From positions 1-25,430 of the IMG/VR virus record IMGVR_UViG_3300012001_000105: a DNA stretch of 25,430 bases. One strand, written 5' to 3'. Within the stretch, counting starts at the first letter, position 1, and each line of letters begins with the position of its first letter. This stretch comes from a virus. A program made the translations under genes and the position numbers. Below, one piece after another: positions 240 to 24,806 of the stretch. The notes under the pieces are model-generated. The model worked only from the letters and a program-made list of their open reading frames with translations. It was not told where the DNA came from and did not search any database.

Positions 240-288
240 AAGCGTCCTTTCGTAGTCCTAAGACCATATCAGAAAGGTACCCAGATGT

Positions 289-373
289 CTACTCGATGGG
301 CTATGGACCTATAGAAGGCCCCTACCCAGTAAAGGTAAGGGCCTTCTAGAGGACTTATAGCCTAATCGAGTAG
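289..373. terminator. Large 85-nt imperfect hairpin, probable (bidirectional) terminator
   Basis: Bases 289-326 pair with 334-373 around a 7-nt loop (327-333). The inner stem 312-326/334-348 is almost perfect, with one C.A mismatch. The outer stem, CTACTCGAT at 289-297 against 364-373, is perfect apart from one bulged base. A few mismatches and bulges lie between. No clear T-run follows on either strand. It sits between the last tail gene (stop at 400) and the left-edge gene, so termination is the natural role. Its outer right arm is also the first 13 bases of repeat copy 1, which a simple terminator would not need. Confidence 0.6.
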
Positions 374-403
374 GGTTACTTAACCGGTCTTATTGGCCCT
401 TAG
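361..403. repeat. Direct repeat copy 1, possible recombination (att-like) site
   Basis: This 43-bp sequence recurs at 21954-21995 in the same orientation. The copies share an unbroken 22-bp core (378-399 and 21970-21991) and the flank CCTAATCGAGT. They differ by two substitutions and a TT-to-C change. The repeat contains the stop codon (400-402) of the tail gene to its right. Copy 2 lies just upstream of a tyrosine integrase. A tyrosine-recombinase core site is the best guess; a conserved 3'-UTR element is the alternative. Confidence 0.6.
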
Positions 404-891
404 TCCATGTGGCTGGCGAAGCCGCCGACGAAGCGTTCCCGCCCGTAGGTCATGGCTGAGAGCCGGATGCCGGGCGCGGTGCCGCCAGTGAATGCCCAAC
501 TGATCTTCAGCCGCCAAGGGAAGCCGCCACTGATTCGCCGAGCTAGGATGACAGGCGTCGCGGTTGCGGCCGTGGACACATCGAACGATGTGGGCCAGTC
601 TCCGTCCGGGAGTAGTGACGGGTTGCTGGCCGCGGAGAGGTCCACCCATGAGTTTGTTGGGTCAACACCGGAACCGCCCGTGTTGACTTCTTCCTGGTTC
701 CCGCCAACAACGGAGTGCCAGAGCTGGAACTTGGGCGTGATCGTGACGGTCGTCGGTGCGCCGACGATGGACTCAGCCGTGATGACCACAACTGCGTCGA
801 GGTAGTCCCTTGACTGTTCCGACGTGATGAACGGCGAGGTCATCAGGGTGGTGTTGTAGTTGATCAGGTGAACGTTTGAGCGAATCGTCAT
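400..891 (-). CDS. Putative tail/adhesin protein, 163 aa
   Basis: The ATG at 891-889 overlaps the TGA of the preceding gene (TGATG), and GGTGG lies about seven bases upstream. An in-frame extension to 1011 is open but runs through the previous gene in another frame and reads as nonsense, so I reject it. The product (MTIRSNVHLINYN...) is rich in beta-strand-type sequence, Thr and Ser, with no membrane segment. It is the last gene of the GC-rich tail block and its TAA lies within repeat copy 1. By position and composition it is probably a receptor-binding tip or fibre-associated protein; I do not recognise a named family. Confidence 0.7.
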   Translation of the reverse strand: MTIRSNVHLINYNTTLMTSPFITSEQSRDYLDAVVVITAESIVGAPTTVTITPKFQLWHSVVGGNQEEVNTGGSGVDPTNSWVDLSAASNPSLLPDGDWPTSFDVSTAATATPVILARRISGGFPWRLKISWAFTGGTAPGIRLSAMTYGRERFVGGFASHMD

Positions 892-2063
892 CAGAAAGCC
901 ACCGCCCTGTACCGGTTGATTGTGAGTTTGGATTTTGAGGCCGACGTTGACCGGTTGTCGATCTGTGCGTAGGCGTTGAGGCCGCCCTGGAATCCGGCGT
1001 CTCGGGAGCATGCCGGGGAGACGTAGCCGCCGCTGGTGCCTTGCTGCGCGAGCAGGTCATTTGCGTGAGTGTTGGTGGATATGTTGTTGTCATACCCGGT
1101 GCCGGCGAGGGAGCCGAAGCCCATCCCGTTGTGGCGTAGACCCTCAATGCGGGCAACTACGGTTGCTCCGGTGTAGGATGCGCCCGCCGAAGTGGAGGTG
1201 GATGCGGTGGCGTTCACGGAGAGCGTGACGGTCTTGGTGCCCGTGTTGACGCTATTGATGAACGTGTCCTTGGTGACCGATGTCCCTGCTACCATGCCGC
1301 CCGCGAGCGGATCGGTTGACCCGGTGTAGGTGGCCGAGGTTGAGCCGCTAGTGGTGGTCAGGGTGACCGGCCCGCCCGCTGGCGTAACCGACTGTGGAGT
1401 GAGCAGCAGCACTAGTTCGGTGTACTGGCGCAGGACCTTGCCGTAGTTCATGCCCACGAGAAGCTGCTCATATCCGGCGATGGTGGGGGAAATCGGGTTT
1501 CCTGCGCCGTCGTTGAGGTCTTGCCAGTGAGCCGTGGATGCTGAGCCGACGTTGATCTGCCACTTGCCGCCATAGTAGGTGGTGTTGCCCTCGTCAAACA
1601 TGGTGCAGCGGACCATTGCGAGCGTGCGGTTGGCCGGGGTCGGCTCAAGCCCGCCCGTTCCGATGCCACCGAGCGCCGCGGCTCCCCAGTCCGCAGTGTC
1701 AAGGCCGAACTCGAAACCCACCGATGCCTGGAAGACGCTTGAGGCGGTGCGGAATACGCGCCCCGTCCATTCCACTTGAAGGTAGACGCGGGACGCCCCG
1801 GCTGGGCGGGTGAGTCGGCTGAGCGCGGAACACCCGGCCGCCTGGCCGTTGGGGGTATTGGTGGCGATGTCCGGGGAGATGAGTTCAAGACCCAGCCCGT
1901 TGAATGCGACAGAGCCCGCCGCGGTGGTCCCGCCACCGAGTAGGGGCACCCATGAGGGGAAGCCGGTCCCGGCATGGTCATGCAGCAAGACCTTGGCCCC
2001 GGCTGGTGGGAATGAAAAGTCAGGCTTGTGGGTCGCTGTGACCTCACCGACGACGTACGACAT
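891..2063 (-). CDS. Putative minor tail / tail fibre protein, 390 aa
   Basis: The frame starts at ATG 2063-2061 (MSYVVGEVTATHKPDFSFPP). The sequence is Gly/Thr/Ser-rich with low-charge beta-type segments. A first part (about residues 20-210) looks like a compact beta-sandwich, a Thr/Ser-rich tract follows around 230-295, and the C-terminal part ends in INRYRAVAF. It has no signal or membrane segment. It lies between the YD-repeat protein and the 163-residue protein in a tightly packed GC-rich operon: the upstream gene, once its shift is corrected, ends one codon before this ATG, and the downstream gene overlaps its stop. Role as a structural or host-recognition component of the tail is inferred from position. 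Confidence 0.7.
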   Translation of the reverse strand: MSYVVGEVTATHKPDFSFPPAGAKVLLHDHAGTGFPSWVPLLGGGTTAAGSVAFNGLGLELISPDIATNTPNGQAAGCSALSRLTRPAGASRVYLQVEWTGRVFRTASSVFQASVGFEFGLDTADWGAAALGGIGTGGLEPTPANRTLAMVRCTMFDEGNTTYYGGKWQINVGSASTAHWQDLNDGAGNPISPTIAGYEQLLVGMNYGKVLRQYTELVLLLTPQSVTPAGGPVTLTTTSGSTSATYTGSTDPLAGGMVAGTSVTKDTFINSVNTGTKTVTLSVNATASTSTSAGASYTGATVVARIEGLRHNGMGFGSLAGTGYDNNISTNTHANDLLAQQGTSGGYVSPACSRDAGFQGGLNAYAQIDNRSTSASKSKLTINRYRAVAF

Positions 2064-2784
2064 TTAGGCGATTCCTGTCACTCGGCCCGCGCTGTCGCGG
2101 GTGATGGTTTTGGTCACCGGCGTTCCGCGTGATGGTGGTAACGCGGCCTTGGCTGTCGCGGGCGTACGTCTCAGTGATGCCGTTCTCCGTCACGGAAGTC
2201 ACTTGACCGGAAGCGTTGTAGGCCACGGAAGCGGTCGGCAGCGCGGCGGCGTAAGTTGGGCTGAGATTCCAGTTAGCCGGGTTGAAGGTGCCGCCCGAGG
2301 TGTGGTTTGCGATGGCTGATACAACGTCACCATTCGGGGAGATAACCAACCGCCCTGCCGTGTAGGCGGTGGCCGTGACCCACTTCGGTATCGTCGTTGT
2401 GCCGGGGGCATAAGTGGCAGATATGGACGTACTCAGCGAGGTGATTGAGTCGGTGAGGTCCTGCTGGCGGATGACGGGGTTGGTGATTGGGGGGACGCCG
2501 GGGGCCGGGATGTCCGTGGATCCGTCAGTGTAGGAGTAGGTGGTGTAGGGGGTGTAGGCGGTGCCGTCTCCGGTGATGGTGAAGGTGCCGGTCTCGATCT
2601 CGTAGCCGCTGCGCACCGATACCCGGTAGGATCCGGTGGTCGGTACGGAGAAGCTGACCAATCCGGAGACTACGGTGACAGGTATGGACAGGCTGGCGGG
2701 GGCGTTGGTGCGGTCCCAGACGCTGATCTGCGCGGGCTGCGTCGGTGTGATGCGATCCGGAGACCACGAGAAAAGATAAGGCAT
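2064..2784 (-). CDS. Tail protein with RHS/YD-like repeats, frame broken by +1 shift
   Basis: The ATG at 2784 is preceded by AAGGA at about six bases. The first 60 residues look like an immunoglobulin-like module (PTQPAQISVWDRTN...), followed by a region containing WVTATAYTAGRLV, similar to short chitin/carbohydrate-binding tail modules. The C-terminus carries two 20-residue YD-type repeats starting GQVTSV and GRVTTI, then GRVTGIA. As written the frame changes after ITR and ends at 2044 with a meaningless basic tail overlapping the next gene. Removing one G of the GG at 2125-2126 restores the second repeat and gives a TAA at 2066-2064, directly abutting the next ATG. The corrected product is 239 residues. 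A one-base insertion or sequence error is the likely cause. Confidence 0.75.
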
Positions 2785-2809
2785 CGTTAATCCTTTTTAG
2801 TGTTACTTT

Positions 2810-2815
2810 ATTATA
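2810..2815 (-). promoter_or_regulatory. Possible -10 element (TATAAT) for the GC-rich tail operon
   Basis: A perfect TATAAT on the minus strand lies 25 bases before the ATG at 2784, at the switch from moderate-GC to GC-rich genes. No good -35 is found at 17 bases (AACATG), so this is a weak or activator-dependent promoter at best. Confidence 0.3.
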
Positions 2816-2822
2816 GCTTACA

Positions 2823-2846
2823 GTTTATTCGTCATGTTGAATAAAC
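2823..2846. terminator. AT-rich inverted repeat after the zinc-motif gene
   Basis: GTTTATTC at 2823-2830 and GAATAAAC at 2839-2846 form a perfect 8-bp stem with an 8-nt loop, eight bases after the stop of the gene ending at 2854. It lacks a T-run and is AT-rich, so it may be a weak terminator or an operator next to the -10 element at 2810-2815. Confidence 0.35.
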
Positions 2847-2853
2847 AATAAAA

Positions 2854-3331
2854 CTATTCGATGAAGTCGTTGAAAAAGACCTCAGCGATGCCTTCGTCCA
2901 CCTCTGCAGCATCCTCAAGCAGTCGGCGAGCCACGTTGGTGAGGTACTCCGTCTGATTATCATCATACTTCATCAAAGAAGCGATTATGCCACGGGCCTT
3001 TTCCGAGTGTTGAGCCCAGTATCGCGGTGTTTCCGGGAACACACCTTCGATGGATAGGCCGGAAGGCCTGCAGTCAACACAGGGCATGGCGTCCTCGGCC
3101 AGCTCCAGCTCATCGACGGCACTCAGGCGATTCCTCGACACTACCGAGCATTCAGCGCTGTGGTAGTAGCGGCTGACACCTACGCGGGAGATTGATGTAC
3201 GTCCCTTTGGGTGTGCGAAAAAGGCTGAACTCCACCCAGCGCGGTCGGGATCCGACGCGGCTGGAACTGGTGGAAAGTAGTTCCCCATCAAATCTGAGGG
3301 TTCGTACCCCGTCTTTTACGGCATATTGCAT
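2854..3331 (-). CDS. Small zinc-motif protein, frame broken by +1 shift
   Basis: Two overlapping minus-strand frames make one gene. The true start is ATG 3331-3329 (MQYAVKDGVRTLRFDGELL), with AGGA six bases upstream and nine bases after the stop of the previous gene. The longer downstream frame has no ribosome site at its first start (3291). Skipping one A of the AA at 3192-3193 joins the halves as ...TPKGTYI-ISRVGVSRYYH..., 158 residues. H57, C61, C84 and C87 (YHSAEC and PCVDC) form an H-x3-C...C-x2-C arrangement typical of small zinc-binding domains. The C-terminal half is acidic and helical. The exact role is unknown; neighbours suggest an accessory protein of the tail operon. Confidence 0.7.
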
Positions 3332-3339
3332 AAGAATTC

Positions 3340-3534
3340 CTAGCGTGGATTTTGAGTCTCTGTGTCAGTATTGTGTGTCTGGGAGTTTTGAGCAGCCATA
3401 AGGGCAGAGTCCCGCTCATCGCGTAATAGCTCTGCTAGGATTTCTAGCTGTGTATTTTGATATATAAGCTCTGAAATCTTTCCTGAAAGCCTCTGGCAAA
3501 CTGCCTGATAGTTAATCTCAGGTAAAGCGGTCAT
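3340..3534 (-). CDS. Small coiled-coil protein, 64 aa
   Basis: The ATG at 3534 follows AGGGGG at about five bases and lies nine bases after the stop of the 57-residue gene; its own TAG is nine bases before the next start. Residues about 12-48 (CQRLSGKISELIYQNTQLEI...) have heptad-like leucine/isoleucine spacing and should form a helix or coiled coil. The last 15 residues are Asn/Thr/Gln-rich and disordered. No known family recognised. The regular nine-base spacing on both sides argues for a real translated gene. Confidence 0.65.
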   Translation of the reverse strand: MTALPEINYQAVCQRLSGKISELIYQNTQLEILAELLRDERDSALMAAQNSQTHNTDTETQNPR

Positions 3535-3543
3535 CGAAACCCC

Positions 3544-3717
3544 CTAGGCTGTAGGTGGTGCTGCGGAGACCGAGGGACTGCCTGCTGTAGCCGAGAGCAG
3601 GGTTGCTAGCTGGTCTGTAAATGGTGCTAGCGCCGCGTCATCGACATATCCCGACACCGCAATAGTGGTGTCGGCCCCTGCAGTGCTTTTTCGGATTGTA
3701 ATTGATACATCAGCCAA
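3544..3717 (-). CDS. Small unknown protein, 57 aa, TTG start
   Basis: A TTG at 3717-3715 with AGGA seven bases upstream opens MADVSITIRKSTAGADTTIA and ends at TAG 3546-3544. The first about 25 residues alternate hydrophobic and polar residues as in a beta hairpin, a short helix follows (LAPFTDQLATLLSA), and the end is Ala/Pro/Ser-rich. It is easily missed because of the TTG start. Good spacing to its downstream neighbour (nine bases) and the ribosome site support it. Function unknown; by position it belongs with the minor tail genes. Confidence 0.6.
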   Translation of the reverse strand: MADVSITIRKSTAGADTTIAVSGYVDDAALAPFTDQLATLLSATAGSPSVSAAPPTA

Positions 3718-3800
3718 AGGGTAGTCCTATATCTATTAGTCAATTGTCTACTACACAGTATACTACGATTTTTATACTCCTATGTGGCAAAGAAATATTA

Positions 3801-3875
3801 CTAAACCCCGAGGTGCACACGAGTCGCTAGGACTACGATGAAGCTACCGCAGGCCTCTGTCAAAAAGTCCATCAT
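3801..3875 (-). CDS. Doubtful 24-aa peptide frame in the 3718-3897 gap
   Basis: The gap between the minor tail gene and the 57-residue gene holds little. One minus-strand frame begins with two ATGs at 3875-3870 and encodes a 24-residue peptide with a hydrophobic centre (SFIVVLA). The ribosome site is poor (only AGAAAGAA). TATACT- and TATAAA-like stretches lie at about 3755-3780 on the same strand without a matching -35. I would not call this a gene without expression data. Confidence 0.15.
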   Translation of the reverse strand: MMDFLTEACGSFIVVLATRVHLGV

Positions 3876-3897
3876 TTCTTTCTGGTTTGGTAGAACG

Positions 3898-5007
3898 CTA
3901 TTGAATTTTTGTAACTCTAAGTAAAGTATCCCACTGCATAGTTACCCCCGCCTCATGATAAAAGTGGAGCAAGATGATCTCACCAGCGGTTGCATTGTAG
4001 TTGTTGAGGCCAACGTTAAACTCGTATATCCCGGCTTCTGATTTTGCCACTGCTGCATGGGTATAGGTCTGGGCGTAGTTCTGTATATAGACACGACTTG
4101 CTGTGTAGGTTGTGCTGTGGTTGCTTATGAAGGCTTGGACACTATATACACCCGCCTCTACGAATTGAATCTGGTCGTTGGCAGGGAAGGATACGAAGCT
4201 GTCGTTGGACGAATGTGTAGCGTCTCTGGTGAAGGTGCCCGGACCCCACATCGTAGCAGTCGTCGGATAGCTGGTAAGCAAGTTAGAGCAGAAGTGTTTC
4301 ACTGGTTGGATTAGCTTTGTACCTACAGTAAGCGTCCCCGAGATTGTTTGGTCTCCCGTCACGGACACCGTACTGGCCGATATCGTCATCGTCCTAGTGT
4401 TATTAGTGCTGCCTGTGATCCCCATAGGTGTATCAACTATGTTCGAGGTTGCACCGCTACCGCTAATAAATTGAAACGCTGGGGCATAGATCGGCTTGGT
4501 GAATAAAGTGCGACTAGGGGTAGCCGTAAGGCGGTTGGGATATACCAAATCTATATTGCCAGAATCTGCATCAATCGTCGCTTGTCTCATGCCCGAGGAC
4601 AGCTGAATCGACAAGCCATCAATCGATGTCAACTGGGCATAGGAGAACATAGTTGTGCCGGTTGGCTTGATTGCGATCCCGGGAATTGGTGACCCACTGG
4701 CCGGTGCAGGAGGCGGGTATTGATCTGAGTGGACAGTGATCACACCACCAGCGGCACCACCCACTACCATATCAACCGGTATTGGCGTGGGGTATACCGG
4801 GTCGATGCTATAGTCATACCCTGTTCCGGTTGCCTTGAGCGTACCCGTTACCGTGATTCCCGTGGAATCGGCAGTAAGGTAGTTTACGTTGCTGGCATCC
4901 CAACCGTGCAGGCCAGTCGAGTCAAGCTGGATTCTTGCGCCTGTTGCAGCAGTACGTACGATGGCACCGGTAATTGTCTTACCGTCAATGGCACCGTCAA
5001 CTAGTAG
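3898..5007 (-). CDS. Minor tail protein, C-terminal part (after +1 shift)
   Basis: This is the downstream half of the gene that starts at 6340. The in-frame region from about 5007 reads LLVDGAIDGKTITGAIVRTA, the usual hinge of actinophage minor tail proteins after a carbohydrate-binding module. The open frame extends back to 5223, but those residues are basic nonsense from the other frame. The C-terminal 140 residues (FVEAGVYSVQAF... to LLRVTKIQ) look like a C1q/TNF-type jelly-roll receptor-binding tip. No ribosome site precedes this half, so it is probably made only as part of the 813-residue product obtained by skipping one base at 5007-5008. Confidence 0.75.
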   Translation of the reverse strand, partial: LLVDGAIDGKTITGAIVRTAATGARIQLDSTGLHGWDASNVNYLTADSTGITVTGTLKATGTGYDYSIDPVYPTPIPVDMVVGGAAGGVITVHSDQYPPPAPASGSPIPGIAIKPTGTTMFSYAQLTSIDGLSIQLSSGMRQATIDADSGNIDLVYPNRLTATPSRTLFTKPIYAPAFQFISGSGATSNIVDTPMGITGSTNNTRTMTISASTVSVTGDQTISGTLTVGTKLIQPVKHFCSNLLTSYPTTATMWGPGTFTRDATHSSNDSFVSFPANDQIQFVEAGVYSVQAFISNHSTTYTASRVYIQNYAQTYTHAAVAKSEAGIYEFNVGLNNYNATAGEIILLHFYHEAGVTMQWDTLLRVTKIQ

Positions 5008-6340
5008 GTTCGGAGTCACCAGCCCTCGTTGCAGTAAAACTGTCGAACCAGACGTTTCCTGAATTAAATGCGGCCTCAGTACCGAAACCGAAGGTACCCT
5101 TAATTGCCCCAGCTGGTACGGTAAACATGCCCGACAATTTAACATAGGTATTCGATGAAGCTGCTGCAGAAAAAGATACAAGAGAGGTTGTCGGGGTATT
5201 AGATATGTCAAATGTCTGGGCATAGATAGATACGCCCGACGCCGGAACCCCTACGTCTGACTTAACCCACACTGAGACTCTAAAAGCAGAGAGGGGGTCC
5301 ATAGGTATGGAAGTAGTGTTGAGGCGCAGCTGTTGTGTGTTATTATTTACAATTTTGAAGGAAGTAGTCCCGTTGCGCGAGCCTGTGGGGTCGATAGAAT
5401 AGGCTCCTCCGACGCCCCAAGCGATACCGCCAGCGGAGAAGTCTCCCTCGGGCATGACATTATCTGTCGAGACGAGGACCAGTTTGTCCGCCGTAATCGA
5501 TCTGGCCGATAACCTAGCTGCGGCCAGAGTCCCTACAGTCATCTTTCCCGCATCGATATTGGCATATATCGCGTTGTTTCCCAGCAGTGCGGCACCCCAT
5601 GCAGTGCCCGACCATGTGCTGATCCTGTTGTCGTTCGCCGTATCGAACCAGAGATCACCTACACGGAACGGCACCCCAGCAGGGGCGGAAGGGGCTACCG
5701 AGGGGTTGTAGTAGATGGCGTTCTTACCGTCCGCTGTCGTTTCAACAGCGGTTAGTGCTGTATCGAGAGACGAGAGGTGGGCACTGATAGCCGGGTCGTC
5801 TGCCATACCGCTTACCATGACAGAGGCACTATTTATGCTCTCGATTGACTTATTTTTGTTGTAGTCTTCAGACGTAAAACCAAAGCACCAAGTCTCACCT
5901 ACGGCAGCAATGTTACTCGGCACTACTATTGATTCTGTGGGCAACCTCAATGCGCCTATGGTAACTGTAGAGGTCGGCAGTCCGCCAACGACTTTGTGTC
6001 CAATGACGTTTAGGTGCTCGAAATCTCGTGGCTGCGCCGCGCTGGCTACGAACTGTCCGTCCCATGAAATGAGGACCGACCCCGGCTTTGCATTTACTAT
6101 TGGTGTAGTAGGTACCGGAGGTGGCGTTGTGTCCCCGACAAAAGGCTGAATACCTACCGAGCCATCGGGAAGCTGTCCAAAGACTGTCGAAACACCAGTT
6201 ACAGGGTCAGTCGTGGTGAGTGTCTGCCGGATCACTACATCACCGGACGCACGGGTCTCTTGCTGCGCTACACGTCCCTCAATGTTTTTTAGGATATTAG
6301 CGAGCCCACCGGCACTCGGGTCTAGGCGTCTAACTTCCAT
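4997..6340 (-). CDS. Minor tail protein, N-terminal part (FN3-like and carbohydrate-binding-like modules)
   Basis: ATG at 6340 with GGAGA upstream, overlapping the end of the previous gene by 11 bases. An N-terminal helix (about 1-35, LANILKNIEGRVAQQ) is followed by a fibronectin-III-like module (about 75-180: TTPPPVPTTP...VLISWDG), then a segment with GDLWFDTANDNRISTW, a linker (TVGTLAAARLSARSITADKL), and a beta-sandwich carbohydrate-binding-like module (about 300-440). The frame ends early at 4997 (RAGDSEPTS), although the natural continuation lies in the +1 frame. Upstream location next to Dit and tail-tip genes supports a tail-tip/central fibre protein involved in host binding. Confidence 0.8.
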   Translation of the reverse strand: MEVRRLDPSAGGLANILKNIEGRVAQQETRASGDVVIRQTLTTTDPVTGVSTVFGQLPDGSVGIQPFVGDTTPPPVPTTPIVNAKPGSVLISWDGQFVASAAQPRDFEHLNVIGHKVVGGLPTSTVTIGALRLPTESIVVPSNIAAVGETWCFGFTSEDYNKNKSIESINSASVMVSGMADDPAISAHLSSLDTALTAVETTADGKNAIYYNPSVAPSAPAGVPFRVGDLWFDTANDNRISTWSGTAWGAALLGNNAIYANIDAGKMTVGTLAAARLSARSITADKLVLVSTDNVMPEGDFSAGGIAWGVGGAYSIDPTGSRNGTTSFKIVNNNTQQLRLNTTSIPMDPLSAFRVSVWVKSDVGVPASGVSIYAQTFDISNTPTTSLVSFSAAASSNTYVKLSGMFTVPAGAIKGTFGFGTEAAFNSGNVWFDSFTATRAGDSEPTS

Positions 6341-8374: not shown

Positions 8375-8387
8375 TTGAAATTCCTCA

Positions 8388-9257: not shown

Positions 9258-9265
9258 GTCATTCC

Positions 9266-12200
9266 TTAGCGGTTAACGAAGTTCCAGTAGAGCTCGCTTG
9301 CGGCCATCTGGCCGACCTGAGCCTCATTGAGGGGGGCGGATGGATATACATTCACCGTCGGTGTGATAACAGTGCCACTGGAGTTACGGCCTTGCTGCAT
9401 ACCTGCAGCAGCCGCAAACGGATCCACAGCCGTCCGTGTAGCAGGGTTGGCGAAGATATTAGGGTTGCCCTGAGCTCCGCTAGCTAGATTTACTGAGACA
9501 GTGGCGTTCATGGTGTCGGAGATAAGGTCAGTCACACCCGAGAGGGTCTTCTGGAGCCCTCCCATGGAGCCCTCGATACCCTTCTGAAGACCGCCCATGA
9601 TCCAGCCACCGTGAGGGACCAGCAGTGCGCGGTCATACTCTTCAGGCCCCTTGTGGTCGGCAATCCATTGGCCGATACCGCCGACCATGTCCTGCACGCC
9701 CTTGAACCCTGCCGTCAGGCTGCCAAGGAACCCGTCCATGATGGCCTGTCCGGCACGCTGCAGGATTGTGCCCGGGTCTCCAATGGCGTCCATGATTCGA
9801 CCACCGATTCCGGCAATCCATCCGACTACCCTTGCGATTCCGTCAGCCACCGCTTGGCCAGTGTTGTTCCACATATCAACAAACATGCCGACGGTATTGC
9901 TACCGAAATCTGCAAACATACCGATAGTTTGGTTGACCCAACCGCCCACGGATGCGATAAAGCCGTCAAGGAAGGCACGGGTTTCGCCTGTGGTCTGTGC
10001 GTAATACCCCACGAACATGCTGACTAGGCTGCTCACCCAGCCGGTGACCATGCCTATGGTGTTGCTGACGAAGTCATTCCACATTCCAACAGTATTAGTG
10101 AAGAAGTCTACAAACATCCCAATAGTGTTGCTGGCGAAGTCATTGAACATGCCGTTTGTTTGGGTGTTGAATTGAGACACGGTGTCAGGAAGATTCTTCG
10201 TGAAGAAGTCGGAGAACATGCCGAAGGTATGGTTGAAGAAGTCGTTGAACATGCCTTTGGTATTGTTATTGAAATCGTTGAGCATGCCCATGGTATTGAG
10301 GACGAACCTCGCAATGGCACCGGGCAGGTTTGTCCAGAAATCATTGAACATGCCGGTCGTGTTGTTGGCGAAATCCACGAACATACCGACTGTGTTTACG
10401 AAGAATCGAATAAGGTTGTTGCGGGCATCCACACCGAACTTAGTGATTTGAACGGCCATATCTACGGCCCACTTGATGACAGTATTGATTATGTCGTTTC
10501 GCCAGTTTTGGAAACCTGTTATCACGTCAATAAAGAATTTCATGATGTTGACAGCAGCACCGACTGCCCAGTTTCGGATGTTTGTGCTGACGTCGGTAAA
10601 GAATTTAGCGATATTAATGAGCACAGACATAGCCCAGTCAGTGATGGCTTTCTTGGTGCTATCTACAAACTTGTGGACCTCACCGATAGGGTCGTGGGCA
10701 AATCCCTTAAATCCTTCGACTACCTTATTAAAGAAATCTGTAAACATGCCGACGGTGTTGGTGAAGAAGTCTACAAACATACCTACAGTGCGAGTGCCCC
10801 AGTCCTTCACCATTCCTACGGTATTGTTGAAGAAATCAACGAACATGCCGACGCTGCGGGTCCCCCAGCCCACAATCATTCCAACAGTATTGTTGAAGAA
10901 ATCTACGAACATGCCTCCGGTGTTCTTAAAGAAGTCACCAAACATGCCCATAGTATTGTTGAAGAAATCGGTAAACATACCATTGGTATTTTTATTGAAG
11001 TCTTTGATCATGCTGCCGGTGCTATTGAAGAAGTCACCGAGGTTTTTACCTGCGTCATTGGCGAAGTCGGTTACGGCTTTGGAGACCGCGTCCCAGTTAG
11101 CGATAAGCAGGATTATTCCAGTGATCAAGGCTGCAATAGCGATAGCAATCAGGCCAATACCTGTCATTGCCAGTGCACCTGCAAACATCTCAGCGCCTAC
11201 ACTCGCCCCTTCAAATGCTGGGAGGAGTCCGAGAATGAACCCACCTATTGTCTGTGCAATCTCTAGGCCCTTAATAAGGCCGACCGCGATGCCTATCATG
11301 GAGTTGAAGATGACAACGGTGCCGATTACAAGTGCAAGAGCGCCAACAATTACGTCCCCCGCACCCTTTGAGTCAAGGAAGTGGTTTATCAGATCCAAAA
11401 TAGGGTTGAGGATTGGTTCGATTGCCTTGAAAAGTTTGTCAAAACCATCTAATAGCCCCGGAAGTACAGCCAAGACAACAGGTATGGCTTTGGCCCCGAT
11501 TTCGATGATCTTCTCGATAATCGGAGTAACATGGGTAATCAAATCACCTAAAATAGGTGCCAACTTGCTTATGGCATCGCCCATCGCGGCTGCCATCGGA
11601 GGCAGTGACTTGCCTGCGGCATCTGCTAAAGTCTTTATCGCAGGTAAGACTGACCCGGTGAGCAGTGCAATCAAGGGGGGGAATGCTGTTTTTACGAGAA
11701 TACCAATAGCTGGTGCCAGTGCATCAACAACTGCATTTGTAATATCACCGAGAGGCTGGATCAAGGGGACAATATCGGACAGCAGTGAAGCAACGAGCGG
11801 TAGGATTTGGATGACCGCGTTCGCGAACACACCACCGAGCGAGTCGGCAAGCTTTCCAATTACCGTAAAGAAGATGCCGAGTTTATCTCCTATAGGGCCA
11901 GTTGCTGTAGCGAAATGATTAAGTCCGAGGACAATTCCACCGAAAAGATCTTGAATACCCTTGAAGAGGGTGGGGTTACTGAGAATAGCACCGAAGAATG
12001 TGAGAACATTTCGAATAGCAATTCCTACGTCCTGCTCCACCACCTTCAGGGCAGGCGAGAGGTATCCAACACCCTTGAGGAAGTTACCGAGACCGGTTAC
12101 GGCGTCTTTCATCGCCAAGTTTGCACCACTGAATATATTTACAAGGGCTGTCTGGACTGCAGGCTCCCTTACTACGGCTGCGAAGCGCTCCATCGTGAGA

Positions 12201-13612: not shown

Positions 13613-13628
13613 GCCCTACAACCTCACA

Positions 13629-14332: not shown

Positions 14333-14354
14333 GTGTCTTTCCTAATTTCGTCAG

Positions 14355-14738: not shown

Positions 14739-14739
14739 G

Positions 14740-15228: not shown

Positions 15229-15236
15229 GGGATTCC

Positions 15237-15506
15237 TTAGATAGTTTTGAGGGTCTTGATGAGGGACTTGCGCTTGAGTCCGGCCTCTTCAGCAGCGAGA
15301 GCTCGTGCTGCACGCTCTGCGTCTGTGCCGACCCATTCAACGATCTCCGAAATGGTCCCTTCCGGTACAGCTTCCTCGGTCTCCGGGACAGCTGCATCTT
15401 CGACAGGCGCGGTCTCTACCGCTGCTTCAGCTTCCTTGAGCACTTCTACCGGGGGGTAGTAGACGTTCGGCGCGGCTGGATCTGCATAGGGGTCTGTATC
15501 GCTCAA
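15237..15506 (-). CDS. Small acidic head-tail region protein, 89 aa
   Basis: Starts at ATG 15506, overlapping the end of the adaptor gene by four bases (ATGA-type). Residues 1-48 are acidic, Ala/Pro/Val-rich and disordered. Residues 50-89 (TISEIVEWVGTDAERAARAL then EEAGLKRKSLIKTL) form a small helical domain common at the ends of actinophage structural proteins. Role unknown; perhaps a linker or decoration piece of the connector. Confidence 0.65.
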   Translation of the reverse strand: MSDTDPYADPAAPNVYYPPVEVLKEAEAAVETAPVEDAAVPETEEAVPEGTISEIVEWVGTDAERAARALAAEEAGLKRKSLIKTLKTI

Positions 15507-16192: not shown

Positions 16193-16216
16193 AATGCTCC
16201 CAAAGTTATTTGTTCT

Positions 16217-16227
16217 AGTATATCATG
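16217..16227 (-). promoter_or_regulatory. Possible extended -10 promoter for the connector genes
   Basis: The minus strand reads CATGATATACT, with TGATATACT resembling an extended -10 (TGnTATAAT). It sits 25 bases before the ATG at 16192, just after a terminator hairpin. The same 11 bases occur upstream of the scaffold gene at 20140-20150. No -35 is evident. Confidence 0.4.
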
Positions 16228-16238
16228 GGTACAAACAC

Positions 16239-16273
16239 TTCTGGCTGGTCCGAATAAACCGAACCAGCCAGAA
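16239..16273 (-). terminator. Probable terminator after the tail tube gene
   Basis: TTCTGGCTGGT at 16239-16249 pairs perfectly with ACCAGCCAGAA at 16263-16273, and the stem continues inwards with one mismatch. It lies 18 bases after the stop of the highly expressed tail tube gene. On the minus strand it is followed by GTGTTTGT, a weak T-rich tail. Confidence 0.6.
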
Positions 16274-16290
16274 TTGATGATGCAAGATAA

Positions 16291-16941
16291 TTAAGGGGTT
16301 GTTGCGACGTAGCCTGAGCCACCGGATGGGATTGCCGGGATGGACGCCGTGCGAGCATAAGCATACGCACGGTCAGTGATCCACGGCCATGTAGGTGTGT
16401 TGCCGGACCCGAGTCCGAAGAGGGGGTTTCCTACGCCATACCCTGAGAATTCGGTTCCTAGAACACCTTCAGCAATGGTCTTGTCGCCGCTTCCCTGCAT
16501 GATGGTGTAGGGTAGGAGCCAGTGCCAGTAAGGGTTTACAGCTGCTGGGCGACCGTTGAGAATGGCCTTGGACCAGACCTCAATGGACACGCCGTTCGGT
16601 GTAGCGTTCTCGCCGATGTTTGCTGCGGCGTAACCCTGAGAAGCCCCAAGAATCACACCTCCAGAAATCATTTCGGTGAGTTCCGGGTCAGGGTTCTCGA
16701 CGCCAAGCGTGAGGTTGACGCGCTTGAGTGTGTTGGGGGTCTTGTAGGCGATACCGATGGTACCGTCCGCAAGCTTGGTTGTGATGTCGGTTCCTGCTTC
16801 AAACTCCGGAGTAATCTTGACGGAGATGAATGCGCGGGTAACGAATGATGCGCTTGGGCCTTGAGCCGTGGAGCCATCCGCGTTGAGGCGGGTGACACGA
16901 ATTACGGAGCCCGAAATGCTGGCGCTTTTATCGTAAGCCAT
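16291..16941 (-). CDS. Major tail (tube) protein, 216 aa
   Basis: Starts at ATG 16941 (MAYDKSASISGSVIRVTRLN). Residues 35-110 carry the tail tube pattern: AFISVKITPEFEAGTDITTK, GIAYKTPNTLKRVNLTLGVE, then DPELTEMISGGVIL, close to the 'dpel.elltG' motif in many siphophage tube proteins. The C-terminal half has a Trp/Tyr-rich region (NPYWHWLLPYTIMQGSGDKT). Its place between the capsid and the adaptor, rather than next to the chaperone, is unusual; a strong terminator follows it, as expected for an abundant product. Confidence 0.7.
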   Translation of the reverse strand: MAYDKSASISGSVIRVTRLNADGSTAQGPSASFVTRAFISVKITPEFEAGTDITTKLADGTIGIAYKTPNTLKRVNLTLGVENPDPELTEMISGGVILGASQGYAAANIGENATPNGVSIEVWSKAILNGRPAAVNPYWHWLLPYTIMQGSGDKTIAEGVLGTEFSGYGVGNPLFGLGSGNTPTWPWITDRAYAYARTASIPAIPSGGSGYVATTP

Positions 16942-16960
16942 TGTGAATCCTTCCTAAAAT

Positions 16961-17827
16961 TTAGGCGTAGTCTAGTGATAGATCGATAAGTACTGCATAG
17001 ACGTTTGTGGTGGACCATGTGACAGCTGCTGGACGGTCGACGTAATACTTGATAGTGTTTACACGAGTATCAACAGCCTGAGATACCTCACCGGGGGTCA
17101 CATTCATGTCGCCAAGGATGACCGTCACCGGCCCTGTGGCATACAGCCAGTACTGGTTGGTACCGGCTGCGATGCCTGAAGGACCGAGCTTGGAGTATCC
17201 TGTACCTGCTACAACTGTGTTCCCTAGCTTGGTGAAGAGTGCGTTCTTATCTTCTTCAAGCTTCAGGATCCCAGCCACTGCGCGAGGTGCATGGATCGTT
17301 CCGACAGAGCCGATGGTCGCATTGCCCAGAGCACCTTCGAGAAGAGCCTGCCCATAGCGCGGCTTGACAGCCGTTCCCGGGGTAGGTGTTACATCGATTG
17401 TGCTGGTGCTGGCAAGGTAGCGGTTGTCGTTAGTCTCCGTGAGGAGCTTCGCGATACCGCCGCCCCAGAACTCGGTTTCGATAGCCTTCTGAGAGACGAT
17501 GTCCAGAGCCTTTTTGGCGCTTTCTTCAATCTCGTCAGGGGTGACGCCGAAAGTCGAGTGTTCGACTTCAGCTTCAATATCGAAAGGGAAGTATTTGCCA
17601 AAGGTCTCACCGGTATTTGGAACAATACTGACGATTTCAGCGGGTGTGGTAGCACCCATAATCACAGCGTTGTCTACCTTGACTCTGGCATCCCCGATTT
17701 CGTAGTCGAAACCGGCGAGCCAGTAGTCATCATGACGTTCTATAACAGTAGTAGCTGGACTCAAAATCCCAAACGGAGAAGCCTCTGGTCCGGTCGTCTC
17801 AATAAGAGTGTTTGTCGGTCTTACCAT
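16961..17827 (-). CDS. Capsid-region structural protein, 288 aa
   Basis: Starts at ATG 17827 with GGAGA six bases upstream. It has VDNAVIMGATTPAEIVSIVP, a helical segment (DEIEESAKKALDIVSQKAIE), then GALGNATIGSVGTIHAPRAV and TNQYWLYATGPVTVILGDMN. The order 'short beta, helix, ...GtIHap..., ...Wly.TGPV.v' recurs in actinophage proteins encoded directly after the capsid gene; these are usually just called structural or minor capsid. No membrane segment. It may be a second capsid-lattice or head-decoration protein; I cannot name it. Confidence 0.6.
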   Translation of the reverse strand: MVRPTNTLIETTGPEASPFGILSPATTVIERHDDYWLAGFDYEIGDARVKVDNAVIMGATTPAEIVSIVPNTGETFGKYFPFDIEAEVEHSTFGVTPDEIEESAKKALDIVSQKAIETEFWGGGIAKLLTETNDNRYLASTSTIDVTPTPGTAVKPRYGQALLEGALGNATIGSVGTIHAPRAVAGILKLEEDKNALFTKLGNTVVAGTGYSKLGPSGIAAGTNQYWLYATGPVTVILGDMNVTPGEVSQAVDTRVNTIKYYVDRPAAVTWSTTNVYAVLIDLSLDYA

Positions 17828-17879
17828 TTTATTTCTCCGTTGGAATTTCGAGTCCAGCTACTGTTACTTTGTTGATCTA

Positions 17880-19004
17880 CTACGGGGAGACTACGGTCGT
17901 AGTTGCGGAAGCGGATCCCTTGAGTGCCAGTGCGCTTGTGACGCGTAGGGACTCGACGCCGACCTTTGCAACGCCTTCGAAGGTCTCAAGGAAGATCTTG
18001 TAGTCGTTGGTGCCGTTGAGGGTGGAGTCGCGCACGAGGCCGAGGTCCAGAGTTCCTGCATCGAGGAAGAGGAACGTACCTTCGGAGAAGAGGTACCAAA
18101 CAACTGTTGTTGGGAATGCAAGGAGCACATCGTTGTTGTTCTGTGTGCCGAAGATCTGGCCTGTCTCGCCATCGATGTGCCATGACACGTTGATGGAGCG
18201 AGTGGAGAACCAAGCGTTGATTTCAGCCTCTGCGAGGTTGAAGGTTCCTTCGCGTCCGTCGCCCGGGAGCTGCTTGATCAGGTCGGCACGAAGTGCGTTC
18301 TTGAACCAAGTCGGGAAGATAACGCGCAGTGGTGCGTTCTCGTCCAGACGGTAGCGGGAGCGGTACGCTGCTGCGGCGCGGTCAAGCTGGCCGAAGATGT
18401 CGCGTGCGGCACCAAGCTCTGCAGCGGCTGTGACCTGTGTAGACAGGGCACCGATGCGGGTGAGCAGGCGGGTCTCGGCGTAACGTGCGTGCCAGACCAT
18501 ACCAAGCTTGGTGTGGCGCTCTACGAGCTCCGGGTATGCGCGAGCTCCGAGGTTACCGAAGGTCAGGCAGAGAGGGATCGCGTCTACGTAGACGACGATT
18601 TCTGTACCAGCTGCAACGCGGATACACGGCTTGACCGGGTCCGGTGCGCCAGCGGTGGATGCGTCGATGTCATCCTGCAGGGTCCACAGGGAGACAGAGC
18701 CGTTGAGGTCCGTAAGGAGCGGTGGAGTCATGAAGCGGATACCGCCACGGTCAGCACCGAAGACGGCGAGTGCGTCCTTGACTGGGCGGTCAAGTGTCTC
18801 ACCGAGTTCGAAGATGTCGTAGGAGGTCTCCACAGGTGCGGTCAGACCACCGGCAGCGGTGATGGCTTCAGCGGAAACAACGCTTTCAACCTTGGCGCGG
18901 TTGCCTTCGAAGTCCGAGGAGTTGAGGAAACGAGCCTCAGGGAAGTCCGTCTTGAAGGAAGCGACGAGCGACTGCTCTCCGTCTCCACCAGAGGTCTTGC
19001 CCAT
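17880..19004 (-). CDS. Major capsid protein, C-terminal shell domain, 374 aa
   Basis: The frame read from ATG 19004 begins MGKTSGGDGEQSLVASFKTD and spans an HK97-type shell protein: N-terminal arm, EAITAAGGLTAPVETSYDIF, DRGGIRFMTPPLLTDLNGSV, TKLGMVWHARYAETRLLTRI (spine-helix region), a long helix (GAARDIFGQLDRAAAAYRSR), LRVIFPTWFKNALRADLIKQ, and a C-terminal beta part. There is no ribosome site before 19004, and the frame continues in sense upstream as LERKKS. Together with the preceding gene it reads as one 714-residue protein after a +1 shift at 19022-19023. Standalone translation of this part looks unlikely. Confidence 0.9.
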   Translation of the reverse strand: MGKTSGGDGEQSLVASFKTDFPEARFLNSSDFEGNRAKVESVVSAEAITAAGGLTAPVETSYDIFELGETLDRPVKDALAVFGADRGGIRFMTPPLLTDLNGSVSLWTLQDDIDASTAGAPDPVKPCIRVAAGTEIVVYVDAIPLCLTFGNLGARAYPELVERHTKLGMVWHARYAETRLLTRIGALSTQVTAAAELGAARDIFGQLDRAAAAYRSRYRLDENAPLRVIFPTWFKNALRADLIKQLPGDGREGTFNLAEAEINAWFSTRSINVSWHIDGETGQIFGTQNNNDVLLAFPTTVVWYLFSEGTFLFLDAGTLDLGLVRDSTLNGTNDYKIFLETFEGVAKVGVESLRVTSALALKGSASATTTVVSP

Positions 19005-19015
19005 GGACTTCTTGC

Positions 19016-19029
19016 GCTCAAGGAAGAGC
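19016..19029 (-). other. Candidate +1 frameshift site joining scaffold and capsid
   Basis: The scaffold frame ends GCT CTT CCT TGA (19029-19018). Reading CTT GAG instead, one base on, continues as LERKKSMGKTSGG. A proline CCT before a TGA can slip to CTT, as at known CCC/CUU-UGA +1 sites. A single extra C is the plain alternative. Confidence 0.5.
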
Positions 19030-20025
19030 AGAAGCCACAGCGGCGATGTCGGGAAGCTGGCTTCCCATTGGGATGCCCTTGATGTCAGCGCCAGCGGTAA
19101 TTGTTACCGGGGCAGACACACGAGCGGTAGTTGGGGCAAGAGCTGCCGGAGCTTGGAATTCAAGCCCTTCTGGAGTTGCTGAGGCAGTCACGGTATCCTC
19201 TTTCTGGATTTCGTCCGATGCGAGTTCAGCATCGGTAGTTTCTGGGGCTGTTGCAGCTAGCTCGGCGGCATCGTCTGCGGGTACTTCTTCGGTTGCTGCT
19301 TCTGACTCTTTAGGTGCATCTTCAACAGTTGGATCTTCGTCGGCGGCAAGACTTGCAATCTTCTTCTTGTCTTCGTCGGTTAGATCCGGTTCAGCATCTG
19401 CGTTGTCCGTTTCGTCGCCGCCACCAGCTGCATCGTCATCAACGGACGGGTCCGCTGCTGGTGCATCTGTGGGGGTTTCGGGTGCGGCGTCAGGTGCAGG
19501 CGTAGCCTCATCAGTAACTGCAGCGGGGGCATCCTCCGGAGCGGCTTCGTCATCCTTCGCAGGAGCGGCGATGGCGGCGGCTGTGGGGTCTTCCACAGGT
19601 GCCTCATCCTCTGCTACTGGAGGCTGCTCGGCAGCTTCAGTCGGGTCCTCAGGGTCCACAGTGGCGTCCGGTGTTTCGGCGTCCTCTGCAGTGCCAGCAG
19701 GTGCTTCAGTATCGTCGGTGTCCGGCTCTCCGTTGCCCTCTGGGTCAACGTCACCATCTCCGTCGTCATCCGTGTCCTTGCTCATGCGGGCAACTGCGTC
19801 AGCAGCAGCCTGTGCAAGTTGTGCGGATTCGGCGCTACGGCTCTCGCGTTCGGAACGGACTGCGTCCGCTGCGTCTGCAAGAGCGATCATGTTGGTTACA
19901 ACTTCGCGAGTCGGGTCTTGCGATTGAACCGTTTTGAACTCTGATACAACAGAGTTTTCTAGTGCGTCGAGCTCGTCATCCGAAAGGTCGGAGATTTTGT
20001 CTAGGCTTTCACGGATCTGATCCAC
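19018..20025 (-). CDS. Acidic scaffold domain of the capsid precursor, 335 aa
   Basis: Starts at GTG 20025 with a strong AAGGAGGG five bases upstream. Residues 1-85 are helical (SLDKISDLSDDELDALENSV; MIALADAADAVRSERESRSA), about 86-275 are an extreme Asp/Glu/Ala/Pro low-complexity stretch, and 285-335 return to ordered sequence (VSAPVTITAGADIKGIPMGS). A helical acidic pre-domain fused to the capsid, removed on maturation, is the standard role of HK97 delta-like domains. No serine protease motif is visible, so a separate prohead protease or none is expected. It ends two codons into the junction with the capsid; see the frameshift site. Confidence 0.8.
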   Translation of the reverse strand: MDQIRESLDKISDLSDDELDALENSVVSEFKTVQSQDPTREVVTNMIALADAADAVRSERESRSAESAQLAQAAADAVARMSKDTDDDGDGDVDPEGNGEPDTDDTEAPAGTAEDAETPDATVDPEDPTEAAEQPPVAEDEAPVEDPTAAAIAAPAKDDEAAPEDAPAAVTDEATPAPDAAPETPTDAPAADPSVDDDAAGGGDETDNADAEPDLTDEDKKKIASLAADEDPTVEDAPKESEAATEEVPADDAAELAATAPETTDAELASDEIQKEDTVTASATPEGLEFQAPAALAPTTARVSAPVTITAGADIKGIPMGSQLPDIAAVASALP

Positions 20026-20052
20026 AGGGTCCCTCCTTAGATTTCATTTAGA

Positions 20053-20070
20053 GATAAGCAATTGCTTATC
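20053..20070. promoter_or_regulatory. Perfect 18-bp palindrome upstream of the scaffold gene
   Basis: GATAAGCAATTGCTTATC is fully self-complementary. It lies 28 bases before the GTG at 20025 in the only long gap (20026-20174) of the head operon. It could be a repressor operator, or a 7-bp stem with AATT loop in the leader. A weak -10-like TATACA adjoins it at 20072-20077. Confidence 0.5.
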
Positions 20071-20139
20071 GTGTATAAATTCAGTCTCTATGGCAGCAAG
20101 GGCAGGATCATCGTGTGATTTGCGCTCAGTATTGTTACA

Positions 20140-20150
20140 AGTATATCATG
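20140..20150 (-). promoter_or_regulatory. Possible extended -10 promoter for the head operon
   Basis: The minus strand reads CATGATATACT, identical to 16217-16227. It would start a leader of about 108 bases before the scaffold GTG, containing the palindrome at 20053-20070. No -35 is apparent; a run of six T's lies just upstream. Confidence 0.4.
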
Positions 20151-20174
20151 CAAAAAAGTAGGTGTGTATGCTAG

Positions 20175-20840
20175 CTAGGCAGCTTGGGTGGTAATTATTA
20201 TCGGTTCTAGGGTACGGTCCTTGGGGTAGGGTATCAGCGGATATTTCAAGGCCGCTATCAGGTTGCTGCGCCGTTTACCCTTGGCATTAATGTAAATATA
20301 TCGGTGCTTTCGGGGGCGGGCACGTAAAGTGAATCGGTCACCATAGAGATCTCTAAGCTCTTGAGCGGTATACTTGTCTGCGATTGTCTGGGAGTGCTTG
20401 TCCAACCCTTCAACAACCCAGTCCGTCCGTTTGGCGCTGAGGCCCGAGTAGAGCCAGTTTGTGGCCTGATATACAGTGCCTAGATGTCCGTGGGAGGTAT
20501 CTGCGTATGAGACGATGATCTCTTTATCGACAAGCTTCAATGTGTTGCCGATGAGGTATGATTCCCCATTTTTAGGGACGATGTCGTCTACCCAAAGCCG
20601 GGTCAGCTCTATGACGTTGTGGGTATGCTCATCCCCAGCTATCCCTCTCCGCAGCGGTGCGGAACTGGGTGTCCCGTAGCAGATTACTCCATGGAGTAGA
20701 TCACCCTTGAAGAGCCCGAAGGCGAAGGAGCACGGGGCCTTTCGATGAAGATAGTGATTTCTTACGACTATGTCCATGGCTTCTTTATAGTCTATCGGTT
20801 TTATCTGCCAGTCGGACTTCTGAAGTCGTTGTTCTGTCAC
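20175..20840 (-). CDS. Mom-like DNA modification protein, 221 aa
   Basis: Starts at GTG 20840 with AGGA five bases upstream. It shows the features of the phage Mu Mom family (GNAT-fold enzymes that modify adenine and protect DNA from restriction): NHYLHRKAPC at 28-37, GVICYGTPSS at 51-60, ELTRLWVDDIVPKNGESYLI at 79-97, and SYADTSHGHLGTVYQATNWL at 111-130. The C-terminal 50 residues are basic (RARPRKHRYIYINAKGKRRS), consistent with DNA binding. Length matches the family. It has its own near-consensus promoter at 20867-20895 and is the first gene of the unit leading into the head genes. The exact modified base cannot be read from sequence. Confidence 0.85.
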   Translation of the reverse strand: MTEQRLQKSDWQIKPIDYKEAMDIVVRNHYLHRKAPCSFAFGLFKGDLLHGVICYGTPSSAPLRRGIAGDEHTHNVIELTRLWVDDIVPKNGESYLIGNTLKLVDKEIIVSYADTSHGHLGTVYQATNWLYSGLSAKRTDWVVEGLDKHSQTIADKYTAQELRDLYGDRFTLRARPRKHRYIYINAKGKRRSNLIAALKYPLIPYPKDRTLEPIIITTQAA

Positions 20841-20866
20841 GTTTATCCTAAGCGTAGTTTGTCTAG

Positions 20867-20895
20867 AGTATACAGTTTACCGCGTTAAATGTCAA
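20867..20895 (-). promoter_or_regulatory. Near-consensus sigma-70-type promoter before the Mom-like gene
   Basis: On the minus strand TTGACA (20895-20890) is separated by exactly 17 bases from TATACT (20872-20867). Transcription would begin around 20860, 20 bases before the GTG at 20840. The -35 begins on the last base of the preceding terminator stem. Confidence 0.8.
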
Positions 20896-20924
20896 AGAGC
20901 CCCGAACGGTTGTTCGAGGCTCTT
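20895..20924 (-). terminator. Intrinsic terminator after the integrase
   Basis: AAGAGCCCCGAAC (20895-20907) pairs with GTTCGAGGCTCTT (20912-20924) with one mismatch and a 4-base loop. On the minus strand it is followed by TTTGACATTT. It lies 17 bases after the integrase stop and insulates it from the late genes. Confidence 0.8.
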
Positions 20925-20940
20925 CTCTAAACACTGTTGA

Positions 20941-21915
20941 CTATGCTGCCCCTGCAAGGAAGGCACTTACCACGTGCACTGCATGTCGATCATGGTTATG
21001 TCTCGCACGATCATAGCGAGATGTAGTTCTTGGGTCTGAGTGCCGTGCGGCGATCTGTGCATCTCGGAGGGGTGCACCAGCGTCTAAACATGCAGTAACG
21101 AAAGAGTGCCGTAGAGAGTGTGGGCTTATTTTCTTCGTGATGTTTGCTGCTTTACAGAGCCGGTTGACGGCTAGCGCAGCCGATTTACGATTCATGGGTA
21201 GGCCTGATTTTCGACGTAGCAGCAGATAACCTGTTGTGCGATCACCAGCTGCTGCATCCAACGCTCGGATAACCGGGACGGGCAGTGGGATTGTCGCGGG
21301 TTTCCCACCCTTACCGACGAGTCGTAGTACACGGTGCCCACGCTCAATCGATTGATAATCCTCGATCATGACATTACAGGCCTCAGAGACTCTGAGGCCC
21401 AGCATACCCATTAGCGTGATCAATGCTCCGTCTGATGGGCATGAAGCTCGGGCAGTCTGGATGAGGCTTCCTAGCTCCATCCGGTCGAGCCCCAGTGTTC
21501 TAGACTCATCACGGTAAATCCTAGGCATACGCAGATGCGTTGCTGGGGACTTATCGATGTAGTCATCTATCTCTGCGAAAGAATAGAAGCCACGAACAAT
21601 GGATATGTGGTGGGCCACTGTAGATGCACTGTTGCCTCGTACCTCTTCGAGGTGTCTTGCAAACAACTCCAGAATCGGACGTCTCATTCCGACTAAAACT
21701 TCTACACCATTAGATGCGCACCAATCCCAGAGGATCTTCAGCGTGACGCGATAAGTTTCGCGGGTGCCACCCCGGTATCTCGCAAGATATCCGGCAGCAG
21801 CGAGTTCAGCCGTAGTCACCGTCCCTGCCTTAGGTAGGCCAGCGATCAAGGCGTTGTTCATTCCGAGCTCCATATCTAGGTAGGTCAGTGCGACTGTAGA
21901 TATACAGTCGTCCAC
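20941..21915 (-). CDS. int: Tyrosine site-specific recombinase (phage integrase), 324 aa
   Basis: GTG start at 21915 with a perfect AAGGAGG six bases upstream. Residues about 35-120 form the SAM-like core-binding domain (YRVTLKILWDWCASNGVEVL ... VRGFYSFAEI). The catalytic domain has R175 (GLRVSEA), K202 or K205 (GKGGK), H266 and R269 (HSLRH), H292 (ARHSD) and Y301 (SRYDR), so all active-site residues are present. The length and lack of an extended N-terminal arm-binding domain resemble XerC/D-like and small phage integrases. Repeat copy 2 lies about 40 bp before its start. It is transcribed with the phage strand and closed by its own terminator. It most likely mediates lysogeny or recombination between the repeats. 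Confidence 0.95.
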   Translation of the reverse strand: MDDCISTVALTYLDMELGMNNALIAGLPKAGTVTTAELAAAGYLARYRGGTRETYRVTLKILWDWCASNGVEVLVGMRRPILELFARHLEEVRGNSASTVAHHISIVRGFYSFAEIDDYIDKSPATHLRMPRIYRDESRTLGLDRMELGSLIQTARASCPSDGALITLMGMLGLRVSEACNVMIEDYQSIERGHRVLRLVGKGGKPATIPLPVPVIRALDAAAGDRTTGYLLLRRKSGLPMNRKSAALAVNRLCKAANITKKISPHSLRHSFVTACLDAGAPLRDAQIAARHSDPRTTSRYDRARHNHDRHAVHVVSAFLAGAA

Positions 21916-21953
21916 TCCTGACCTCCTTAGAGTACCTCCGACTCCCCAGAGAA

Positions 21954-21995
21954 CCTAATCGAGTGGGGCACTTAACCGGTCTTATTGGCCCCTAG
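21954..21995. repeat. Direct repeat copy 2, next to the integrase
   Basis: Copy of 361-403 in the same orientation. It contains the stop codon (21994-21992) of the glycine-rich fibre and ends about 40 bp before the integrase start. GGGGC (21965-21969) can pair with GCCCC (21988-21992); copy 1 can form AGGG/CCCT at the same place. Placement is what is expected of a phage attachment core. Confidence 0.65.
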
Positions 21996-24361: not shown

Positions 24362-24379
24362 GGTTCGGCTCCTGAGTGG

Positions 24380-24796: not shown

Positions 24797-24806
24797 GATG
24801 TTTTCC

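Follow-up and report, generated by a model that had tools for sequence, protein, structure and literature searches.

What do two identical stretches of DNA do when each lies exactly at the end of a viral tail-region gene and one of them adjoins a recombinase gene? The question is raised by an entire linear virus record of 25,430 bp (the window), which belongs to a virus of soil bacteria. Head, tail, and lysis functions are encoded on its minus strand, and it also has a Mom-like gene and one for a tyrosine recombinase. The answer favored here, with a probability of roughly three in four, is that the repeats serve as core sites for an Xer-like recombinase, encoded by the phage, whose role is to exchange host-recognition cassettes and not to integrate the phage, a reading built on sequence comparison. 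In dozens of related viruses, the site looks like the place where a host-recognition gene and its surface-modifying partners are swapped or inserted.

The major capsid protein of the window has ~80% identity to its counterparts in Racecar, Mimi, and Talia1610, Arthrobacter phages of the 190-kb class. Within a 120-kb portion of Racecar, the part that was scanned has no match to the repeat core with fewer than 6 mismatches in 22 positions, and no tyrosine integrase is annotated in that portion. The tape-measure gene of the window (9851-11032) contains imperfect 33-nt repeats encoding GMFxDF-like peptides.

A dif-Like Site at the Ends of Two Tail-Region Genes

Scanning the whole window finds the 22-bp core ACTTAACCGGTCTTATTGGCCC as two exact copies in direct orientation, at 378-399 and 21970-21991, and no third copy when up to three mismatches are allowed. 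None of 100 dinucleotide shuffles of the window reproduced the pair. The alignment of the repeats reaches left to 361 and 21954, crossing a 1-bp indel. The direct repeats that the initial annotation reported at 361-403 and 21954-21995, with an unbroken 22-bp core, are therefore real, given the exact core and the lack of any shuffled match. The same annotation placed a gene's stop codon in each repeat, and both are found directly after the cores: TTA at 400-402, ending the minus-strand gene at 400-1011, and CTA at 21992-21994, ending the minus-strand gene at 21992-24361.

The functional unit is probably better drawn as a 28-bp site (Table 1), of which the 22-bp core makes up most. When both copies are read, each consists of an 11-bp arm, the 6-bp centre CCGGTC, and a second 11-bp arm, with an inner TAA...TTA dyad. 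An 11-6-11 dyad with inner TAA...TTA is the format of dif and related Xer sites, and both window copies have it. The dyad is imperfect, holding at 5-6 of the 11 arm positions in two relatives. Copy 1 is at a second tail locus, next to a long hairpin; relatives have a shorter G+C hairpin at the same place, between the site and the integrase gene. A search of the window against Rfam gave no match at the gathering threshold. The site lies within ~1 kb of a contig end in four other metagenome contigs as well as at window copy 1, as would be expected if assembly breaks where flanks vary.

Table 1. Positions of the predicted sites and neighboring features in the window
Feature	Position	Strand	Basis
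Int-proximal recombination site (copy 2), predicted	21965..21992	+	Sequence; exact core in other phage contigs; exchange junctions of relatives in the centre
Copy 2, left arm GGGGCACTTAA	21965-21975		
Copy 2, centre CCGGTC	21976-21981		
Copy 2, right arm TTATTGGCCCC	21982-21992		
Second site (copy 1), predicted	373..400	+	Sequence; core and orientation same as copy 2
Copy 1, left arm GGGTTACTTAA	373-383		
Copy 1, centre CCGGTC	384-389		
Copy 1, right arm TTATTGGCCCT	390-400		
Long hairpin, terminator-like, just left of copy 1	288..373	.	Predicted fold, -53 kcal/mol
Xer-like tyrosine recombinase, 324 aa	20941..21915	-	Pfam Phage_integrase; XerD best PDB match; catalytic residues
Glycine-rich tail adhesin gene, stop codon abutting copy 2	21992..24361	-	ORF; phrog_754 minor tail protein, weak
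Tail-region gene, stop codon abutting copy 1	400..1011	-	ORF; tail by position, no family match
Lysis genes (holin-like, endolysin) past the adhesin gene, on the conserved side of the exchanged unit	24380..25424	-	phrog_17214 endolysin; homology block

The Recombinase Beside Copy 2

The complete tyrosine recombinase first noted about 40 bp from copy 2 is indeed there: it starts at 21915, which is 38 bp from the repeat copy and 54 bp from its core, and all six catalytic residues are present (R175, K202, H266, R269, H292, and Y301). This R-K-H-R-H-Y set is invariant in an alignment of ten homologues. The closest solved relatives in the PDB are Xer proteins (XerD, E 1.9e-17; a XerC-like protein, 1.2e-15). 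The protein scores below the cut-offs of the XerC/XerD equivalog models (111 versus 330 bits and 105 versus 335 bits) and below that of the integron integrase model (53.5 versus 265 bits).

A Mom-like DNA modification gene (Pfam Mom, E 3.8e-46) is found at 20175-20840, between the recombinase and the head genes. A stem-loop with changing loop sequences lies 40-110 bp upstream of the recombinase start in L040, L045, L101, and other loci. Most homologues down to ~43% protein identity keep this stem-loop, but the window lacks it; it may act as a terminator or as a leader element.

Junctions of Exchange in Related Phages

The cultured phages compared here were picked by similarity to the enzyme, and all come from one host species. 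With the first base of CCGGTC taken as 0, long near-identical left flanks stop at the last base of the centre or one base past it. Identity between Gorpy and Richie is 99.2% over the 3,367 bp that end at +5, beyond which the next 2.9-4.2 kb show no relation; for Richie and Auxilium it is 98.1% as far as +6, and the match between Zucker and Zaheer ends at +5. In Peas and Eileen, 4.8 kb running to +18 are 97.4% identical, the sequences then differ as far as the start of the adhesin-type gene, and from there on they are 100% identical. The left homology of MidnightRain and Isolde ends at +6; 809 bp further along, at a second site, it picks up again (98.6% over 3.6 kb), which places two genes between two direct sites. 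MidnightRain thus has one clean insertion, an extra 809-bp two-gene cassette exactly where Isolde has a single site. Seahorse likewise has two sites.

Half-sites tell a similar story. Copies of the right half TTTCGGGCCGCTAG... that are 100% identical follow several distinct left halves, and three different right halves follow the left half ...GTTAGGGAACAAAACCGGTC; pairwise counts of such combinations do not represent independent events. Left variants differ at ACAA/ACTT and right variants directly after CCGGTC, which points to crossovers within AACCGGTC, the stretch to which the evolutionary junctions map by sequence comparison and where strands would be exchanged. Sites found by pattern scan are biased toward the conserved left half and centre, and the set adjacent to the integrase gene and the pairwise junctions are less biased. 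Judging by these comparisons, the two flanks of the site reassort among related phages. The initial annotation had seen a cassette-exchange layout in the combination of a nearby recombinase with a site fixed at an adhesin gene's 3' end, and the comparison of relatives agrees with it. The sites are direct, not inverted, in the window and its relatives, which is not the arrangement of a DNA invertase. In Auxilium, ~830 bp right of the first site, a left half-site, ACTTAACC, is fused to lysis-region sequence, which looks like the deletion of an adhesin cassette.

The window itself can be placed in this pattern. It matches its nearest relative, L005, at 94.1% straight through copy 2, and so no exchange is documented in its close lineage. 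With L011, it has in common a 27-bp site region and the 5' part of the adhesin with the lysis genes (23946-25015, 84.5%); the 3' part of the adhesin and everything beyond the site differ, and the adhesin is conserved from ~23946. On this comparison, the adhesin end of the window locus appears variable in the same way as in the cultured phages, and we infer that an exchange took place in the lineage of the window as well. Both tail loci of the window (23945-23969 and 2407-2431), and many adhesins near sites, contain a short DNA repeat that encodes an (L/I)(N/S)ATY-type motif. This repeat is possibly a second crossover point because the homology of the window and L011 begins there.

Cargo and a Possible Promoter

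To the right of the site there is either a minus-strand gene of the tail/adhesin region that ends at the site or forward-oriented cargo. Genes with Acyl_transf_3 and SGNH domains are found as cargo at three loci (including Peas gp30), GDSL lipases at six (including L011 and Bridgette gp32), and Wzy_C (O-antigen-ligase-like) genes at two (including Maja gp27), and the cargo of Gorpy includes a polysaccharide deacetylase and a hexapeptide acetyltransferase. Bridgette gp30, the adhesin of a widespread esterase cassette, combines an Mtd_N (tropism) domain with a GDSL hydrolase in one protein. By their predicted functions, the moved units appear to be a coherent cargo of tail adhesins and surface-glycan enzymes.

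A -10-like hexamer lies 22-24 bases past the start of ACTTAA in 18 of 26 right halves with forward cargo and in 0 of 14 that end an adhesin (halves sorted by hand; Fisher p = 2e-5). Its fixed spacing suggests that the site may also supply a -35 region. This pattern, like the hairpins just left of the site, is what would be seen if the repeat were a conserved regulatory element (a promoter -35/operator or the edge of a terminator) and the chimeras had arisen by homologous recombination at a short boundary. Junctions at the site could also result from recombination of that kind, acting on a short conserved sequence. As a full account, however, this is unlikely: at many sites a reverse-strand gene ends and the -10 hexamer is missing, the Gordonia homologues have a different centre at the matching place, and the MidnightRain cassette between direct copies, the Xer-type dyad, and the constant adjoining recombinase are all left unexplained.

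Distribution of the Site and the Enzyme

The exact 22-mer is present in 11 further stretches on ten IMG/VR contigs, with two of the stretches on one 58-kb contig. Forty stretches carry GGGNACTTAACCGGTC, some of them possibly by chance. By tblastn, homologues of the enzyme with ~80% identity occur in ~30 phages of Arthrobacter globiformis and homologues with ~45% identity in ~60 Gordonia phage records. Site and enzyme are closely linked: the site lies just upstream of the recombinase in 25 of 28 distinct close homologues for which the DNA was examined, it is present in diverged form at one more (L073), and for the enzymes of Tiff81 and L077 no site is recognizable.

It had been proposed that the idea would fail if related phages carried the repeat with no integrase or with no link to fibre gene ends. 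The first of these is seen in Peas and Eileen, which have the site and no recombinase; the second is not, as an adhesin-type gene still lies right of the site in both. Since the two phages differ at the site and keep that gene, they may have lost the enzyme or may be served by one acting in trans. In three Gordonia phages (Utz, Mutzi, and Bakery), TTCACG-TTATGGGCGG, with a different centre and a similar right arm, takes the equivalent position next to the enzyme gene. This Gordonia-type 16-mer is found in 20 virus contigs, mostly with no enzyme in the stretch covered, and Gordonia phage Bunker has no recognizable site near its enzyme.

A tyrosine integrase with a site beside it would also be expected if the repeat were the attP core of an ordinary lysogeny integrase, with the chimeras arising secondarily between prophages that share one attB, and gp36 of Gordonia phage Howe, a relative of Utz gp31, has been given a putative attP (PMC5559632). 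Several findings make this reading quite improbable. A separate integrase, often near repressor or excise genes, is present in all of the cultured phages examined that have the enzyme (e.g., Bridgette gp38, Richie gp40, and a serine integrase in Maja), and the enzyme itself has no long arm-binding region. The window has no tRNA, whereas a tRNA-type attP would call for one. Among 206 Arthrobacter genomes, screened as a set without singling out host strain B-2979 by name, just 16 have a half-site, in varied contexts, with no single recurrent chromosomal attB matching the site; the reversed control pattern gave 0 matches, and the enzyme is found in 4. The half-sites are lone or in tandem in the chromosomes L192, L198, L202, and L196/L205, some beside acyltransferase-like genes, and one Arthrobacter genome has two sites 210 bp apart.

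Proposed Mechanism

In the cassette-exchange reading favored here, each of the 11-bp arms would be a binding site for the recombinase, and strand exchange would take place inside the 6-bp centre CCGGTC. A crossover in the centre would leave the integrase-side half from one molecule attached to a cargo-side half from a second. If the partner is a circular cassette, genes would be inserted between two direct sites. If it is another phage genome, everything rightward from the centre would be replaced, as far as a further crossover, probably by homologous recombination, close to the 5' end of the adhesin gene. What is exchanged would be an adhesin, often with genes that modify surface glycans, and copy 1 of the window would be a second target at the second tail locus. 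The linkage of site and enzyme, the site format, and the junctions suggest that this enzyme would catalyze the reaction at the site, and host XerC/XerD may contribute to the reaction alongside the phage's own recombinase, which is present. The selective role would presumably be a change of tropism with matching receptor modification.

The initial annotation had further suggested that the two window sites recombine to release a 21.6-kb circle and change which adhesin lies next to the integrase gene; identical, directly repeated cores make this topologically possible, and contig G006 has a similar plan, with two same-orientation sites that each end one of two tail loci, yet the idea is very hard to credit, given that no such junction or alternative isoform was found, that the circle would carry off the capsid and tape-measure genes and leave a defective genome, and that the events documented in relatives are single-site exchanges between genomes and a small cassette insertion between two sites.

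A broader extension of the exchange reading, held tentatively at a little short of even odds, is a shared cassette economy. Unrelated actinophages and, slightly, Arthrobacter chromosomes would share one 28-bp site code and a few phage-encoded Xer-like enzymes, which would also work in trans. By these means they would trade adhesins along with matching receptor-modifying genes, which would be expressed through a promoter completed at the site.

Comparison with Known Systems

The nearest parallels are Xer/dif and the pdif modules of Acinetobacter plasmids (PMC11705084), which have in common with the phage system a 28-bp 11-6-11 site, an Xer-like enzyme, and modules bounded by sites. Here, however, the enzyme is phage encoded beside its own site, the centre and arms are not those of dif, and the cargo is adhesins and surface-glycan genes. 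Integrons are similar in having a recombinase gene beside a primary site, cassettes between direct sites (as in MidnightRain versus Isolde), and possibly a promoter at the site for forward cassettes. They differ in their integrase, whose model the enzyme does not reach (above), in that at most two units per array are seen here, and in their folded attC in place of short 28-bp dyads. The phage system would work like an integron or pdif, and membership in either is not claimed. The invertases of Mu and P1 and the Mtd/DGR systems also act on receptor-binding genes, and one adhesin here has an Mtd_N domain; unlike those systems, this one has no inversion and no reverse transcriptase that was identified, and exchange at a direct site replaces entire 3' units.

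The enzymes themselves have been seen before. Utz gp31 and QuinnAvery gp38, which are among the second tyrosine integrases of Arthrobacter and Gordonia phages, are tblastn matches of the window enzyme. Such enzymes are treated as possible or defective integration systems in PMC5559632, PMC13097055, and PMC9584220, with no cassette site or function given in the passages that deal with them. Pope et al. noted second integrases and, in the relevant passage, left their role open, and Bellas et al. (PMC7468147) described interchangeable phage gene modules in a section that does not mention a site-specific mechanism. No published account of this site or its cassettes, or of a cassette, Xer, or tail-fibre system of this kind in phages, was found in the open-access literature, which is weak evidence of absence.

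Implications

Cultured phages with the enzyme exist, which makes the system open to direct test, and the site can be used for finding mobile cassettes of adhesins and receptor-modifying genes. If the cassette-exchange reading is true, it would answer why many Arthrobacter and Gordonia phages have a second tyrosine integrase, a question left open in 2017 (PMC5559632) and in 2026 (PMC13097055). It would also provide a concrete mechanism by which phages that otherwise differ trade host-recognition modules at a set position.
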